From IMG/VR virus record IMGVR_UViG_3300042448_002155, positions 49,715-113,714 of that record: a stretch of DNA of 64,000 nt; one strand, given 5' to 3'. Positions 7,098 to 64,000 of the stretch are shown here, in pieces (the stretch's first letter is position 1; the number at the start of each line of letters is the position of its first letter). Source of the DNA: a virus. Both the position numbers and the translations under genes were made by a program. The notes under the pieces are model-generated. The model did not search any database and was not told the DNA's origin. It saw only the letters and a list, made by a program, of their open reading frames with translations.

Positions 7098-10000
7098 TAT
7101 CTAACACCGGCATTAATATCAATTTGCTCCGATCCAAAAGGATTCATAACTGGGATAACAGACCCTGATACTCCCATGCCACTCATGAGTGATCTCAATC
7201 TTGATGCGGTGTCCGTTTGAGATCCAGATCCACCACCAAATCTAGGATAGCTAGGATTAGATAAACTAGCTTCCTGTAGCTGTTGAGGATAGTAACCCAT
7301 CTGCGACATTTCTAGACCCATGCTTTGACCAATTTTTATTTTAACTTGATCCATACTAGTGTTTGGGTGCCAACCCTCCCAGCTTTCATCTGGTAGTTCG
7401 TGTCTAGCAAAGTAGTCAGTTAACTCTGGCCTCTTCTCTACATCCATACCCCAGGCTGCTTCATATATTCTTCTTTCAAGCCTTCCTGCTGTATCTAATA
7501 TTCTTTTTCTTTCCTCTACGGGAGCATTAATCATGGCTTTAAAATGTTCTCTTTTTCTTTTGGGTATAGATAGAGAAAGCGATTCTACATCAGTTCCATA
7601 TTTTCCTGAATTTATATCTTCTATTGGAGCGCCGTACATTGTTCTCTTAGCCGCCGATTCATACTGGAAAGCTGCTCCCTTATCTCCAGCCATGTTAGCC
7701 ATCTTAGCTAATCTAGTATTTTTAGTATAATTTAAAATGTCTGCATATTCTTCTAACGCAAGTTCTTTCTTTCTCGTTCTTGGTATAAACTTTTCTCCAG
7801 TAATGGCCTCATTGGCCGAATGCAATGATGAGACGGTAAGCCCTGTTATTGCTCCTAATGTGGACATCACCAATTTACCCTTAGAGGTTTCTCCGAAAAA
7901 TGAACCAGCTACTGCTAATGCAGCTGTTGCAGATATAGGATCTCTATTGCCAGCCTTATTTATCATTGGGGCTATGAAACTTTCAAAAGGTCTTTGCCAT
8001 TCTGGGAAGGTTGCCCCGTATACGTTATTTCTTTCCCAATCCTCAGTTGCAGTTTGTTTGTTTACAAACTTCTTATTAATAAAAGTGTCTTTATGGGCCA
8101 GCATTTCGCCCATTCTGCCAAGAGCATGTACATTTGGATTAACGCCCATTTGCTCTGGAGTACTATTCTTGTATTTATATTCAGTAAATTCTTTTTTCTG
8201 TTGTAATGACGCTGATCGTTCTCTGAGTTCTTGAACTTTTAATTTATCTGCGGGGCCGTTCACCATCGAGTCTATGGTTTTATCTAGCGATCTGAATTGC
8301 TTTGAATACGGGGCAACATCGCCAAGTATCTTATATTGATCCATAACCCCATAGCGACCAGAGGCATCGGAGCTGAGTCTATTTAGTCTTTCATAGGCTA
8401 CTCCTGGTAGTCTAAGTTCTCCTTCTGGGACTTTTGCAAACGGGTCACCCGTGGTAAAGTCAGTAAAGTATTCTGACCCAGGAAGAAATGGATACTGTCT
8501 TCCCATTGTATTCTTAATTGGGTTTATATAATCAACGCCAGATCTTTCTTTGGGTATAAATCTTCTTGTTATTTCGGAAAACTCGATAGAACCTATTTGG
8601 CCTCCGCCTAACATAGGCACGTCCCCCAGGCCTCCTAGGTTCAGATCCCAAAATTGTCTTCCAGTTCCATACGCTTTAGAGGCTGATTGTAATACTGATC
8701 TTTGAGGTGCAAAATCTCTTTGGCCTAATCCAAAACTTTCTCGCACACTGCTTGCTGCGAAACCATAAATTCCTAACATTTCTTGAGCCCTATATCCAAA
8801 TTCTTGTGCTTGGATTTGTGGGTTACCAACACTCAATGGACTGCCAGCAGGTACGATTCGTTGGGGCATAATTCCAGATACTTTAGGTGGGCCATAAGCC
8901 ATCTGCATGTATTGATTATTTATACCTGATATTGTATTTCTAGTTTCATTTCTTGCGGTGTTAAGGGATCCAGCCCTTCCTGCTAACATTGCGTTAGAAG
9001 ACGCCTGTGCGCCGTTTGGAGGGCCTCCAAAGCCTCCCATGGTCATTCCACCAGCAACTCCGCCCATACCGCCAAAAACGCCACCTCTGCCGTTAATGTA
9101 TGGGTCTGCATTATATGCTCCAGACTGACCAGCCGGTGCATAGTTAGCTAGGCCTGCTGCCACTTCCTGTTGGTGCATCATCGTTTGAGGTTTCAGTATT
9201 TTACCGACAGTAGCATTTAAGGCTGGAACAAGAGGTCCGAATGGTCCACTGAAATATTCGCCAGATACAGGATATGGCCTATCTTCAAAATGCTTTCGCT
9301 CATAGCGATATGGATCAAATGGCCTAAGCGGAGAAATATCAGTATGGAACAATGCTCTTTCTATTGGGCTCCCCATATTATCTGAGGTAAACATTGCTCC
9401 AGCTTCTAATTTTCTGTATATACTTGGGCGGTAGTACATAATTTTTCCACCCATAAATGGAGTATTGCCTAACGGCCAAAACCGGCCTTGCCTAATAGCA
9501 ACTTCGCCCTCAAATAATTGTTCTTTCTTTTCTTGAAAATTCATTCCACCGGGAGTAATGCCAGAACCAAGAGCTTGCAGATTTCCTACTGCTTTAGCAG
9601 CTCCGCCGATAAAGAATGGCGAGTAAACCCTTTCTCCCCTATCGTCCTTTTCATTGACCATGCCACCGATAGTTCTATCGACGGTCATTACTCCTAAGCC
9701 AGCGCCATAAAGTGGTAGAACTCTTTTGCCCACCATTCCACTTGTAAATAGACCTATGGGAGAACCATATTGTGAGACATTAAGCTGTAAGCCAATAGTT
9801 CCAAAATATTTATTTAATCTTTCAATGCTATGCGACATTGCCGTAGATGCGCTGGAGTAGCTTTCTACGCTACTGTAGGTATTAATTCCTAGTGCGCTTT
9901 TAACAGCGCCATATGGATTTTTGGCAAAGACGGTTCCAAAGGTTGGAACTAGAAGAGTGTCAGTTGCTGGACCCATAGCTGACCCAAGAGCATCACTAGA

Positions 10001-58172: not shown

Positions 58173-58215
58173 GTTTCCCCTGGGGTCTTCGGATCCTGGG
58201 GGAAACTTCTTTTTT
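58173..58215 (+). terminator. Terminator cassette 1 (UUCG-capped)
   Basis: GTTTCCCC pairs with GGGGAAAC around an inner stem capped by TTCG, followed by TTCTTTTTT. It ends the rhomboid transcript and is the first of seven related elements in the next 2.3 kb. Confidence 0.85.
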
Positions 58216-59796: not shown

Positions 59797-59839
59797 GTTT
59801 CCCCTGGGGTCTTCGGACTCTGGGGGAAACACCTTTTTT
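59797..59839 (+). terminator. Terminator cassette 5, with compensatory stem changes
   Basis: Here the outer stem reads AAGGTTGTTTCCCC / GGGGAAACACCTT, where cassettes 2-4 have GAAG and CTTC. Both sides changed together, which supports selection on the structure. TTGATTATAG follows at 59838-59847. Confidence 0.85.
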
Positions 59840-59842
59840 GAT

Positions 59843-59882
59843 TATAGACCCCCGAACAACTGAAGGGGTTGGAAAGGTAATC
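59843..59882 (+). promoter_or_regulatory. CGAACAAC leader hairpin, copy 1
   Basis: The leader GACCCC-CGAACAACTGAA-GGGGTT is followed by GGAAAGGTAATC and the start codon. The same loop and ribosome site recur at 60513-60552 with covarying stem bases. It probably controls translation or stability. Confidence 0.6.
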
Positions 59883-60026
59883 ATGAGCGAGCCATACGAG
59901 TGTTTAGACGGAGTGTGCCGGGACGTAGTGTCATGGACACCCATGGGTGTGCTTGCAGCCGTCGTCATAACGGCTATATCGGTACTTGCCATTGTTCGCG
60001 TCATTGAGCAAATCCGACGCAAGTAA
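59883..60026 (+). CDS. 47-residue single-span membrane protein
   Basis: ATG 59883 follows GGAAAGGTAATC. The peptide starts MSEPYECLDGVCRDVVSWTP and then has one hydrophobic helix (MGVLAAVVITAISVLAIVRVI) and a basic end. Two cysteines in the N-terminal part could form a disulfide or a metal site. Role unknown. Confidence 0.55.
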   Translation: MSEPYECLDGVCRDVVSWTPMGVLAAVVITAISVLAIVRVIEQIRRK

Positions 60027-60144: not shown

Positions 60145-60429
60145 ATGAGTATGTTTGCAAAATATTGTACCCTCTGTGTCAAGAGGGGACGCAAGAATCC
60201 ACCTGCTCCAGTACATCGGAGTAAGGTCTGGGCATATTGCCATGACTGCTATGTAGAGCAGTTTCCAGCAATGGCCATCAAGCGGGGTTATATCGAAGCT
60301 CCGCCTAAGGCACCCCAACAGCCCAAGGAAAGGGTTATGGAAGTGTTTGTTCAGACTTCTCTCTTCGAGAAGGAGGAGAAGTTTAATATCCGCAAATTCG
60401 GTTGTGGATGTCAGGGTCTTCTGCCATAA
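60145..60429 (+). CDS. Small zinc-binding protein (94 aa)
   Basis: ATG 60145 follows CTGAAAGGGGATTGTT, the same leader as the 58261 gene. Cysteine pairs CTLC (near residue 8) and CHDC (near residue 32) form a probable zinc ribbon, and a C-terminal CGC adds further cysteines. The middle is Pro/Lys-rich. Function unknown. Confidence 0.6.
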   Translation: MSMFAKYCTLCVKRGRKNPPAPVHRSKVWAYCHDCYVEQFPAMAIKRGYIEAPPKAPQQPKERVMEVFVQTSLFEKEEKFNIRKFGCGCQGLLP

Positions 60430-60451
60430 CGGTGGGAGATGCAAAGAGGCC

Positions 60452-60488
60452 TCAGATCCAGGGTAGCACCTGGGTCTGGGGTCTTTTT
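60452..60488 (+). terminator. Terminator cassette 7 (degenerate sequence)
   Basis: A 10-bp stem CAGATCCAGG / CCTGGGTCTG with loop GTAGCA is followed by GGGGTCTTTTTTA. The hairpin sequence is unrelated to cassettes 1-6. Even so, AAGTTTCTTTTTTGAGTATAG still follows, with the element at 60508-60517, so the downstream element is conserved independently of the terminator. Confidence 0.75.
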
Positions 60489-60512
60489 TATTATCAAAGT
60501 TTCTTTTTTGAG

Positions 60513-60552
60513 TATAGACCTCCGAACAACCGAAGAGGTCAGAAAGGTAATC
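60513..60552 (+). promoter_or_regulatory. CGAACAAC leader hairpin, copy 2
   Basis: GACCTC-CGAACAACCGAA-GAGGTC is a perfect six-bp stem, followed by AGAAAGGTAATC and the start of the long modular frame. Compared with copy 1, a C-G pair is replaced by T-A, which keeps the stem. Confidence 0.65.
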
Positions 60553-63500
60553 ATGAAAGTTTCAACCACCACCAATAACAGTCCAAAGGAGGACGCCATG
60601 AAGCAAGCAAGAACTACTGGCAAGATCTACGCGGGTTCAGGCTCACGTAGCCTAAAGCTAGATGCGGAAATGTTCACTCGGGTGTTTAATCGCCTAATTG
60701 AAATGATTCGCGAAACCAAGCCAGCCATGCTTATCACAGGTATGGCTGAAGGTTTTGACGAAGCTCTGGCATTGGCAGCCATGGCTACCCAAACGCCATT
60801 GAAGGCCATGATCCCCTATAAGGGCTATGGCAATCACTATTGGGGTAAGGCATCCATTACTGGTCAGAGCCGTTTAACTGAGTACAGGGACATCCTTACC
60901 TATGCCCAGTCTACGGGAGGAGTGGAGTACATCTGCTCAGATAAGAAAGGCCCTGACGGTCGTTGGGCTATGACTCATCGCAATGAAGCCATGGCTAATG
61001 CTTGCCATAAGGCTTGGGTCTACAACCCTACTACGGCCGGGACAAAGCAGTTCCATGACTATTGCGTGGCCAACCAAATTCCGCACTACATCATCAAATT
61101 CAACGATGGGGAAGGCCCTGGGGATACACCTCAGACGCCAACCCCAGAAGGTCCAAAGGAGGACAAAGCAATGAAGAAATACCTAGTTAAGTACACAGAC
61201 GGCACTGAAGAGGTGATCGTCACGGACAAGGGAATCCTTGGATTAACCCAAGACCTCAAAGATGCAGGAAAGGGTTGTTCTATCAAAACCTATAAGGAGG
61301 AAGTTATGGAAATGACTCAGATCAAAACTGAGAAGCAAGTTACACCAGAGGCAGCTCTTATCAAGCGAGAACTGCTTAGCCCTGAAACTCAGGAGTGGTT
61401 ACTCTCCGTCTTGGAGAACGAGATTGCTCCAATGCTGGTCAAGGACATCAGTTCTTATGCGCCTGGTCGTATGCGGACCTGGATGCCGTACGAAGCTCCC
61501 CTTGATACGTCCGCTAGCAAGAACAAGCCATTCGTGCCCGGAGTCCTGCACGATGAGCTCTGGCAGTTCATCGTTGACCTATGCCACAAGCATGGGATGA
61601 AAGCGCAAACCTGTCTCATCTCAAAGGGTGGGAACATCAAACCTCACCGAGACACCACTTATGCTGATGCCTGGGCCATGGGCATAAATCTGGGTGTCTG
61701 CAACTGGCACATCAGCTCTACCCGAGATGGAGCCAAGCCGGACTTCACCATGAACCTTAAAGGAGGGGAAGTGTTTGCATTTAATAGTAAGCACGTACAT
61801 GCAGTGACAGACGCTGCATCAGACCGATGGGCAATCAATGTGTGGGCAATTGCTGACACAAAGGCAGCTCAGACCGCTCAAATTCATGAGCGAATCACTC
61901 AGATGCTTGAGGACAATCCTCGGGTAGCTGAATTCATCGACCATCACCAACCAGGTGCTGGCAAAACAGAAAGGGAGGAAGTCGTGGAGACACCTCAGAT
62001 CAAGGCCGTAGACGCATCCATTCAAGAAGTCATTGAACCAAATAAGGAGCAGAAAGTTATGGACACACCTCAGATCAAAGGAGATATGAATATGTACAGC
62101 TGGATTGAACAGCCAGATATGACTACCCATACCGGTTGGGATAAGGACCGCAAACAGGTCGACGCAATGTTCGGAGAGCAAATCCGGACAGTGTTGACCA
62201 ACAATCCAACGCCTAAGCAGCGTCAGGACATGGCAAACGCCACACTGGGCACTGGTGCAACGATCATTGATGCAGTCAAGGGACTGTGGATGATGCCTGT
62301 CAAGATGGGCGAATACATCTTCCCAATGCTTGAGCGTCTGGGCAATGCGGGAGTTAGGTTCACCCTAGAGGTGCACCCGCTCAAGTACGCAGCCCTCTGG
62401 TACGATGCCAGAACCGGATTCGAGACTCGCTTTGGGGACATCTGGTCCAACGGTGCAAACCTCAAATGGGTTGACGCAGCCCACCTCTACACCATTCGAC
62501 TGGAGGGCATTCCGGTTGGAACTGAGTTCGACTGGACTCAAGTAGGTCTAGAAGTAAAGGATGCAAAGAAGATGGGTAAGCGCCTTGCAGAGCTCACTCG
62601 TCTTGTGCATAAAGATGCATGGACATGGTTTCAGCACAAGGCTGTAATCATCAAGCCCGAGGTTGGGGCACTGGATCCTGCGTTCGAGATCATCAAGCAC
62701 GATGGCCTCAATGCCGTAAAGCGTTCTGCCCTACCTAAGGGTGTTCGCAAGTATGACCGAATCATGGGTCGTGTATTTTGCTCCATCGTTGTGGACGGAA
62801 AGACTGTCCCCGTACTCGTCAAGGGTGACTACTTGGTGGTCAATGATGACATGTGGATCCATGGACATGCTCATTTGGCTATCCACATGGAGAACGCTAA
62901 GACCGAGGTCACACTTGCTGCTGGCCAGAAAGATCTTGCTACCTGGTGGAATCATGAGCCTTTGCACGTGACCACATGGGATCAGCAAACTCTCATCAAC
63001 TACCCCAACATTCTGACCGTTGAGGATATGGAAGCTGACTACCTCCATGAGATGAATGGAATTGACGAGGCACTTAAGCAGGGACGTCTCCCAGGTCAGA
63101 CAGAAGTTGAGGACATAGAAGTCCATACCGATGCATTCGAGGTCGCACCTAAGGCTGACGAAATCGAAAAGCGTGAGTCTTTGGCAAAGTACGCCAAGGA
63201 TGCAGGTTTCGATCCTCGGATGTTTGAGAACCTCATCGGTATGTCACTGATGGGCTTCGTAGATAGCAAGTCACGTGAACTCCGCTTTGATGGAAACATG
63301 AAAGGCTTCCATGGTAAGCACATGGTGACCATGCGTAACTCATTCCGTGCAGGGTGCGTTACTCGCGAATTCCTAGAAGCTTTTGTTGGTGACGGAGCTT
63401 TTGCAGGAGTTTCCACGCCTACCTCACACGCTTATTATGATGAGCGTTGGGGCATGGTTTGGAATGGTGATCACTTCGCACGTTCCTTTGAACTGCACGG

Positions 63501-64000
63501 CACTCATGATGGTGACGATGTTCACTTCGTGTTGCCGATCAAGGTTTGGTCGAAAGATCCGACTACGATTGCTGCGCTTAAGGCTGCGGGAGTTCTTCTT
63601 CCGGGAGTATCTATCCCTAGCGTAGAGGCAAAGGCCAAAATGCTTCTCATTGTCTTCCGCATCCCCAATGGTGCTGGAGAGTACTCCTTAATGGAGTTTG
63701 ACTTTGCCACATGGCCTCAGACCATTGATTTCGACGAGTCTCTTGTCAAGACTCATGAGTTGAGCTTCCTCAGCGGTTGGGTCAAGCCTCAGTCAATGCT
63801 GATCCCGATCAATATGCCAGGACTTACCACTAGTCGTGTGTACAGCAAGACTGCTTATACCAAGGCAGATTTTGCCATGGACTTCAATGCACAGGTAGTC
63901 AATCCTGGCTTTGGTCAGTTGTGCAATGCTTTGGCTGCGTACAGTCACTTGACTCATGGGGATATCCCAACCTGCATGCCTGATAGCCTGGGCAACTGTG
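60553..64000 (+). CDS. Modular multidomain protein: SLOG domain, microprotein, 2OG-Fe(II) oxygenase-like domain, long polymerase-like region (partial, runs off right edge)
   Basis: The frame is open for 1149 codons to the window edge. Residues 23-182 are a SLOG/YspA-like nucleotide-binding domain (YAGSGSRS, LITGMAEGFDEALALA, MIPYKGYGNHYW, HRNEAMANA, AGTKQFHDY). Residues 207-251 form a 45-residue mini-domain. Residues 275-435 look like a 2-oxoglutarate/Fe(II) oxygenase of the aspartyl-hydroxylase type (HRD at 365-367, H416, R425). From residue 512 the long remainder has a VLVKGDY block (K757) and a HDGDD block (986-989). Start codons with ribosome sites recur in frame between modules at 60598, 61171, 61306, 61984 and 62059. 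Confidence 0.75.
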   Translation, partial: MKVSTTTNNSPKEDAMKQARTTGKIYAGSGSRSLKLDAEMFTRVFNRLIEMIRETKPAMLITGMAEGFDEALALAAMATQTPLKAMIPYKGYGNHYWGKASITGQSRLTEYRDILTYAQSTGGVEYICSDKKGPDGRWAMTHRNEAMANACHKAWVYNPTTAGTKQFHDYCVANQIPHYIIKFNDGEGPGDTPQTPTPEGPKEDKAMKKYLVKYTDGTEEVIVTDKGILGLTQDLKDAGKGCSIKTYKEEVMEMTQIKTEKQVTPEAALIKRELLSPETQEWLLSVLENEIAPMLVKDISSYAPGRMRTWMPYEAPLDTSASKNKPFVPGVLHDELWQFIVDLCHKHGMKAQTCLISKGGNIKPHRDTTYADAWAMGINLGVCNWHISSTRDGAKPDFTMNLKGGEVFAFNSKHVHAVTDAASDRWAINVWAIADTKAAQTAQIHERITQMLEDNPRVAEFIDHHQPGAGKTEREEVVETPQIKAVDASIQEVIEPNKEQKVMDTPQIKGDMNMYSWIEQPDMTTHTGWDKDRKQVDAMFGEQIRTVLTNNPTPKQRQDMANATLGTGATIIDAVKGLWMMPVKMGEYIFPMLERLGNAGVRFTLEVHPLKYAALWYDARTGFETRFGDIWSNGANLKWVDAAHLYTIRLEGIPVGTEFDWTQVGLEVKDAKKMGKRLAELTRLVHKDAWTWFQHKAVIIKPEVGALDPAFEIIKHDGLNAVKRSALPKGVRKYDRIMGRVFCSIVVDGKTVPVLVKGDYLVVNDDMWIHGHAHLAIHMENAKTEVTLAAGQKDLATWWNHEPLHVTTWDQQTLINYPNILTVEDMEADYLHEMNGIDEALKQGRLPGQTEVEDIEVHTDAFEVAPKADEIEKRESLAKYAKDAGFDPRMFENLIGMSLMGFVDSKSRELRFDGNMKGFHGKHMVTMRNSFRAGCVTREFLEAFVGDGAFAGVSTPTSHAYYDERWGMVWNGDHFARSFELHGTHDGDDVHFVLPIKVWSKDPTTIAALKAAGVLLPGVSIPSVEAKAKMLLIVFRIPNGAGEYSLMEFDFATWPQTIDFDESLVKTHELSFLSGWVKPQSMLIPINMPGLTTSRVYSKTAYTKADFAMDFNAQVVNPGFGQLCNALAAYSHLTHGDIPTCMPDSLGNC
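60585..60600 (+). promoter_or_regulatory. In-frame ribosome site and ATG, module 1 (SLOG)
   Basis: AAAGGAGG (60585-60592) lies five bases before ATG 60598, in frame with the upstream ATG 60553. This is a stronger ribosome site than the first, so the SLOG module may start here. Confidence 0.65.
61155..61173 (+). promoter_or_regulatory. In-frame ribosome site and ATG, module 2
   Basis: AAAGGAGG (61155-61162) lies eight bases before ATG 61171, within a CCAAAGGAGGAC segment that also occurs at 60583-60594. The start opens the 45-residue mini-domain. Confidence 0.6.
61294..61308 (+). promoter_or_regulatory. In-frame ribosome site and ATG, module 3 (oxygenase)
   Basis: AAGGAGG (61294-61300) lies five bases before ATG 61306, at the boundary between the mini-domain and the oxygenase-like domain. 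Confidence 0.6.
61971..61986 (+). promoter_or_regulatory. In-frame ribosome site and GTG, module 4
   Basis: AAGGGAGGAA precedes GTG 61984, which opens a short linker containing ETPQIKAVD. A related linker, DTPQIKGD, follows the next internal start. Confidence 0.45.
62044..62088 (+). promoter_or_regulatory. In-frame ribosome sites and ATGs, module 5
   Basis: AAGGAG (62044-62049) precedes ATG 62059, and AAAGGAG (62077-62083) closely precedes ATG 62086. Both are in frame and open the long C-terminal region. Confidence 0.5.

Follow-up and report, generated by a model that had tools for sequence, protein, structure and literature searches.

The DNA analysed here, called the window throughout, is a stretch of 64,000 nucleotides that forms the last 64 kb (bases 49715-113714) of the 113,714-base virus record IMGVR_UViG_3300042448_002155. 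The record ends inside the gene that is the subject of this report. From an ATG at position 60553 this gene is free of stop codons up to the window edge at 64000, as the first-pass annotation of the sequence had claimed, and a second record, IMGVR 3300042363_001249 (G001), extends the frame to a stop 965 bases further on, which gives a gene of 1,470 codons. The two records show 3 differences over 63,741 bases (99.995% identity); they possibly derive from the same sample and may not be independent. The encoded protein consists, in this order, of a 15-codon leader, a SLOG-like module, a 45-residue module, a 2-oxoglutarate (2OG) oxygenase-like module and a C-terminal core of 957 residues (Table 1).

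At every joint between these parts a strong Shine-Dalgarno (SD) sequence, defined as one of ≤ -10.6 kcal/mol placed 4-9 nt before an in-frame start codon, was found, in agreement with the earlier annotation except at position 62086. The ATG there is too close to the SD to receive a score, and the in-frame ATG at 62092 (AAGGAG, 7 nt) fits instead. Among the 106 in-frame start codons of the gene, the first included, the top seven SD scores belong to the six joint starts and to a GTG inside the oxygenase module. The boundary DNA had also been described as repeated, and it is: CCAAAGGAGGAC and ACACCTCAGATCAA each occur twice, and a third copy is partial. The last 3.7 kb of the record (window 60287-64000) has a G+C content of 50%, against 34%–42% in the remaining 10-kb blocks.

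The SLOG-like module matches a profile labelled as a GTP-binding domain (phrog_289), and profile matching places it in the SLOG superfamily. No Pfam match was obtained for the window's own module; its relatives match DNA_processg_A and YAcAr below the curated cut-offs, and a phage gene 30.5% identical to it carries a SLOG family annotation. The oxygenase-like module falls under the Pfam curated cut-off (2OG-FeII_Oxy_3, E = 0.0034, 18.7 bits against 27). It contains, in the window as in a sister phage (G002, below), the HxD...H pattern, the motif of 2OG oxygenases. The first module of one relative (L080, MKTYLVKYTG...) resembles the 45-residue module by eye only, and BLAST gave no match between the two.

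Table 1. Features of the fused gene in the window; SD spacing is measured from the end of GGAGG
Feature	Position	Strand	Remarks
5′ untranslated leader, promoter-like (putative)	60503..60552	+	in 54-nt repeat shared with another gene's leader (59833-59886; 89%)
First start and 15-codon leader peptide (MKVSTTTNNSPKEDA)	60553..60597	+	ATG within the repeated leader; similar leader of G002 precedes helicase, not SLOG
SD AAGGAGG for ATG 60598, 5 nt spacing	60586..60592	+	
SLOG-like module with linker	60598..61170	+	phrog_289, 7.6e-10; relatives on 11 further contigs, 8 stand-alone
SD AAGGAGG for ATG 61171, 8 nt spacing	61156..61162	+	four PKED codons identical in G002
45-residue small module	61171..61305	+	relative in G002 (57%)
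SD TAAGGAGG for ATG 61306, 5 nt spacing	61293..61300	+	
2OG-Fe(II) oxygenase-like module	61306..61983	+	sub-cut-off Pfam match; 36% identical to stand-alone gene of Nodularia phages
SD GGAGG for GTG 61984, 5 nt spacing	61974..61978	+	
Repeated linker (TPQIK units) with starts GTG 61984 and ATG 62059; stops just short of ATG 62092	61968..62091	+	16/18 comparable codons identical in G002
SD TAAGGAG for ATG 62059, 8 nt spacing	62043..62049	+	
SD AAGGAG for ATG 62092, 7 nt spacing	62078..62083	+	
Constant C-terminal core, 957 aa	62092..64000, stop ending 965 bases beyond window	+	51% identical in G002; homologues in 15 further loci; stand-alone in L073/L074

A mosaic gene family with a constant core

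The gene belongs to a mosaic family in large tailed phages, found in 19 records as 12 distinct frames with nine architectures (Table 2). A constant C-terminal core (770-960 residues) is preceded by none to six exchangeable modules, namely SLOG, 2OG oxygenase, NADAR, DUF4326, Dda helicase and small modules. A search with SLOG gave 13 loci: the pair G001 and G002, three further giant frames and, in the other eight, SLOG as a stand-alone gene (three of these near-identical). With the cores of two giant frames 15 loci were found, those two frames included; these 15, the window, G001, G002 and a truncated frame (L051) make up the 19 records. Profile comparison links these cores to the window core with a probability of 97.1% (E = 5.5e-11). 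The core stands last in every frame that is complete at its 3′ end, and also in two of the three further frames found through SLOG; the pattern stems partly from the choice of loci, most of which were found through the core.

Table 2. Architectures of the family; "small" denotes short first or middle modules, not all alike
Architecture	Loci
core alone	L073, L074
small-core	L072, L075, L080-L083
small-SLOG-core	L069
small-SLOG-NADAR-core	L070, L071
small-DUF4326-SLOG2-oxygenase-core	L077-L079
small-SLOG-oxygenase-NADAR-small-Dda-core	L076/G005
leader-SLOG-small-oxygenase-core	G000/G001
leader-Dda-SLOG-small-oxygenase-core	G002
small-Dda-DUF4326-SLOG, ended by contig edge	L051/G004

The proposal that modules of separate origin had been joined in one frame, with joints that keep ribosome sites and starts, is borne out by these relatives in both its parts. 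Modules also occur as separate genes: the core in L073/L074, SLOG in 8 of 11 further loci (the three near-identical ones included) and the oxygenase in a Nodularia phage. Homologues in which the chain lacks conserved internal ribosome sites did not occur among the relatives.

The stand-alone core is confined to one lineage (L073/L074), and the ATG of L073 is preceded by TAAGGAGGTG, a perfect ribosome site. Fused cores are 18%–41% identical to it, and all 11 cores compared share G430, D433, D435 and D436 (L073 numbering). In all seven fused relatives listed outside the pair of the window and G002, the SD at the core start scores between -15.3 and -18.3 kcal/mol. No significant match was found for the window core or its relatives in Pfam, PHROGs, NCBIfam, PADLOC, PDB sequences or the phage collection. 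An AlphaFold2 model of the window core from 2 sequences had a predicted local distance difference test score (pLDDT) of 31.6, and for the model of the stand-alone core (11 sequences; pLDDT 45.7) Foldseek found nothing in the PDB at E ≤ 0.001, a weak fold test. The DxDGD loop is the motif of two-barrel RNA polymerases, and the core was considered as one of these. The candidate was rejected: there was no Pfam, PDB-sequence or Foldseek match (the last again a weak test at pLDDT 45.7), and all 11 cores have GxxDxDD, in which one aspartate position differs. The core may represent a large phage protein family without a recognised fold, maybe central to host conflict, and without a match in the annotated phage collection searched. 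A tblastn search of 50,697 phage records with three cores as queries (G001, part of that of G003, and L073) gave nothing at E ≤ 1, and genome contigs scanned with the oxygenase and with a portion of the core likewise yielded no relative.

G002 (IMGVR 3300020172_003635) is a sister phage of the window's record. Its 21 open reading frames (ORFs) before the recA-like gene comprise 8 that are 95%–100% identical to the window record (portal and large-terminase matches included), 11 at 59%–94% and 2 unmatched. The fused gene of G002, with 1,927 codons, encodes a similar leader, a Dda/PIF1 helicase (PIF1, 4.5e-40; phrog_325, 7.1e-78), SLOG, the small module, the oxygenase and the core, and every joint again has an SD with an in-frame start. 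Identity to the window is 72% for SLOG, 57% for the small module, 89% for the oxygenase and 51% for the core. Several virion proteins of the two phages are 95%–100% identical, yet the modules of this gene diverge by 11%–49%, each separately. Ahead of the fused gene in G002 lies a 518-residue PcfJ-like gene (L008 1373-2929; Pfam 8.9e-08), of which no relative was found in the window record or G001. A UvsX/RecA-type gene (phrog_97) is found upstream in the window's record, with a G002 relative at 98%; upstream ORFs of G003, G005, L072, L073, L075, L080 and L083 have a similar N-terminus, as judged in these seven from the first residues only.

The cores of L075 and L077 are 77% identical, and L077 has an extra DUF4326-SLOG-oxygenase block, which L075 is without. 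The block is flanked by two copies of a joint (AGGAGGTAA...TGGACACC), and L075 has one such joint. Likewise, the helicase by which G001 and G002 differ sits between two joints. Read from these two comparisons, the joints are breakpoints of in-frame module gain or loss. The fusion had been attributed earlier to the loss of stop codons; the comparisons show instead that module blocks are gained or lost where ribosome-site joints are repeated, and TAAGGAGG is read out of its TAA frame.

Ribosome sites at the module joints

The joints were assessed in ten distinct fused frames; L071 (a near-copy of L070), L074, L078, L079 and L081-L083 (identical frames) and the single-core L073 were omitted. When domains were delimited by their matches to other proteins, each of the 26 inter-domain gaps held one or more strong SDs with an in-frame start (2-9 strong sites in gaps per fused frame), and strong start codons amounted to 51 of 153 in the gaps against 8 of 779 in the domains. 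Under these limits small modules count as gap, the leader-helicase joint of G002 goes uncounted and the DUF4326 edge in L077 comes from a query piece cut at the joint start. Tighter limits, partly set by hand after the sites had been seen, gave 30 of 32 joints and strong starts of 51/96 against 8/836; each of the two exceptions has a strong site a short way inside the domain edge.

Over the ten frames 59 strong sites were counted, against a mean of 27.2 and a maximum of 42 in synonymous shuffles (0/1,000 reach 59) and a mean of 11.9 in codon shuffles. The window frame by itself has 7, where codon shuffles average 1.33 (0/500 reach 7) and synonymous shuffles 3.03 (11/500 reach 7). One of these seven, at 61771, falls within the oxygenase and not at a joint. 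This strong SD with its GTG, in the GGEV motif, is present in both phages (window 61771 and L008 5713), is probably forced by the protein sequence and serves as a caution. Strong sites in five frames are in frame in 37 cases and out of frame in 9. In the other ORFs of the same contigs, listed mechanically, 74,285 codons contain 20 strong internal sites, compared with 37 in 7,538 for the fused frames, a comparison weakened by the higher A+T content of most of these contigs relative to the gene. Folding is weaker in the 50-nt segments at strong sites (-6.4 kcal/mol, 56 segments) than in those used for comparison (-10.1 kcal/mol, 563 segments; -9.4 kcal/mol when GC-matched). The joint pattern AGTCCAAAGGAGGACNNNATG occurs in 20 viral stretches, two of which are G001 and G002; the other 18 gave no tblastn match to the fused proteins in the DNA searched. 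The TPQIK linker pattern was found in viral contigs once in G001, twice in G002 and in no others.

Proposed internal initiation and alternative readings

A reading that we regard as fairly probable from the sequences is that of a mosaic family whose core is extended in frame by exchangeable modules, with ribosome-site linkers as joints and internal initiation yielding nested products. Each joint is a short charged linker (PKED, PEEG or KEEV, followed by M), the codons of which form a strong SD with an in-frame start 4-9 nt on. Ribosomes would initiate at the joints as well as at the first codon, and the window gene would give nested C-coterminal products of 1470, 1455, 1264, 1219, 993, 968 and 957 residues. 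The core would then be made in excess, bearing different N-terminal enzymes, and the joints may double as recombination points for in-frame module traffic. A stand-alone oxygenase and a 45-residue product, both foreseen by the first-pass annotation, do not follow from this scheme: the internal starts all read to the single stop, so every product (957-1,470 residues) would end in the core unless cleaved. More tentatively, and with an expectation slightly below even, the locus might be a programmable polyprotein gene in which one short DNA joint encodes the linker peptide, admits ribosomes and serves for recombination, and in which a single mRNA yields a graded ladder of core proteins, each with other N-terminal enzymes, by initiation rather than proteolysis.

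Several observations weigh against internal initiation. Three frames fall short of significance on their own (the count is reached by 139 of 1,000 shuffles for G002, 138 for L072 and 371 for L075), K/E-rich linkers by themselves yield many SD-like words (synonymous-shuffle mean 27), and the frames share ancestry, so that the counts are not independent. Strong SDs also occur inside domains, as at the oxygenase GGEV motif of G001 and G002. The SD at the core start is weaker in the window (-10.7 kcal/mol) and G002 (-7.7 kcal/mol), and the G002 ATGs nearest the oxygenase and the core have 4-base SDs only, the strong sites being GTGs 24 codons upstream. Near position 8203 L071 has an altered joint site in place of the AAGGAG of L070, with another strong site left in that joint. 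Synonymous conservation spans whole linkers rather than SDs alone, one linker being unconserved (4/7 codons), and the folding control lacked a set of non-SD starts from linkers only. A strong SD lies near the start in only 22 of 147 ORFs of at least 150 residues (G000, G002, G003 and G005; mechanically listed), and because long ORFs of these contigs rarely have such sites, SD use in the host is uncertain; short ORFs just upstream of the locus, unlike the long ones, often have strong SDs.

The joints might instead be exchange points only, at which modules recombine in ribosome-site DNA while the sites inside fused genes are inherited and unused. The L075/L077 block, present or absent exactly between two SD-start repeats, would fit this, as would the attachment of the G001 and G002 leaders to different modules at the same joint. 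Two linkers are also more alike between G002 and the window (13/14 and 16/18 identical codons) than the modules they join (46%–59%; positions with differing amino acids or without synonyms omitted), although the third linker has 4/7 and five other genes and recA of the two phages show 67%–92%. Such likeness would be explained by recombination as well as by selection for the SD. Linker conservation as proof of SD selection was dropped, since whole linkers are conserved, the third has only 4/7 and the range of the other genes overlaps. We consider exchange alone rather unlikely: the sites persist, above synonymous expectation, before cores 18%–41% identical to the stand-alone one, and recombination alone leaves the low folding at starts unexplained unless all joints are young.

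SD-like codons could also slow elongation for domain folding, the start codons being incidental, and the position of the sites between domains would suit this. A pause, however, requires neither a start codon nor open structure. AGGAG is followed by an in-frame ATG at initiation spacing (3-11 nt) in 24 of 53 cases in five frames, against 9%–18% for seven similar words, and the start sites of fused cores resemble that of the stand-alone gene; a pause is accordingly judged improbable. Slightly less probable still is an ordinary multidomain fusion in which the SD-ATG pattern is a by-product of K/E-rich linkers. Synonymous shuffles do average 27 of the 59 sites and three of the ten frames are singly far from significant, but 0/1,000 shuffles reach 59, the gaps are occupied in 26/26 cases and the control words differ. 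The AGGAG-ATG pairing, the low folding and the core-start SDs favour functional starts over both elongation pauses and linker composition. Assembly error is an unlikely source of the open frame because diverged relatives share the same open layout, with long open frames and other module orders in other records. The window record does end inside the gene, but the second record (possibly of the same sample) agrees with it, and a deletion of stop codons between separate genes by assembly or sequencing error is hardly credible.

The module vocabulary of SLOG, NADAR, DUF4326, Dda helicase and oxygenase suggests that the likely job of the locus is host take-over or counter-defence against immunity based on nucleotides and nicotinamide adenine dinucleotide (NAD).

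Related systems and repeats around the locus

Polyvalent proteins of phages and conjugative elements carry unrelated effector domains in very long polypeptides, with a likely role in counter-defence (Iyer et al., 2017; PMC5512222). The present frames resemble them, as described there, in having at least two unrelated effector domains per phage polypeptide and variable architectures. In contrast, the domain set given in that source (metallopeptidase, SNF2 helicase-methylase, ParB-like, RadC, LPD domains and others) was not found in the fused frames, and the gene is therefore not filed as a polyvalent protein. Among the best 25 matches to Pfam, PHROG, NCBIfam and PADLOC, the clear ones were to SLOG, NADAR, DUF4326 and a PIF1/Dda-type helicase, with the 2OG oxygenase sub-threshold; LPD domains without models in the scanned libraries could be missed. 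The main text of PMC5512222 mentions neither SLOG nor NADAR, nor Shine-Dalgarno or start codon. It proposes release of polyvalent domains by embedded peptidases; no embedded peptidase family was among the matches listed from the library scans of the fused frames, whose core has no recognised fold.

In two-polypeptide endolysins an in-frame second ribosome site gives a full-length and a C-terminal product, as shown by experiment (Pinto et al., 2022; PMC9430671). The present gene shares with these, at the level of sequence, in-frame starts with their own ribosome sites and a common stop. Unlike the two isoforms described for endolysins, it has 2-9 strong gap sites per frame and exchangeable modules. 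For Rpn proteins and Cas11d, which are genes within genes, the C-terminal product of an internal start has its own role (Zhong et al., 2023; PMC10327210); as presented in that paper, each has a single internal product per gene without modular exchange. The family may work like in-frame internal-start genes combined with polyvalent-type proteins. Large phages are described as carrying SLOG fused to NADAR, to DUF4326 and to SF1 helicase (PMC9503650; PMC7824862), the same module vocabulary as here. According to PMC9503650, SLOG, NADAR and DUF4326 are predicted to handle signals derived from NAD or ADP-ribose, and SLOG is also found fused to SF1 helicases. The passages of these two papers cited here contain neither the constant core nor the oxygenase nor ribosome sites at the joints, all of them features of the present family.

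Within the open-access library searched, no report was found of modular phage proteins with internal ribosome sites at their joints. The in-frame internal starts in the papers cited above give one extra product per gene, whereas here the pattern recurs from joint to joint in diverged phages whose architectures are shuffled. If functional, the sites would let bacterial viruses release polyprotein modules through translation instead of proteolysis, and would supply a natural design rule for joining modules in frame.

Repeats also flank the gene. Between window positions 58173 and 60124 five places, spaced 261-704 bases apart, share a 67-nt block (63%–100% identical; GTTTCCCC...CTTTTTTGAGGATAGRCC), which resembles a promoter/terminator cassette repeated ahead of short accessory genes. 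Past the window and downstream of the gene, the second record (L002 10448-13385) contains eight irregularly spaced 24-nt elements that end in CAAACAAAGTGGGG or near it.

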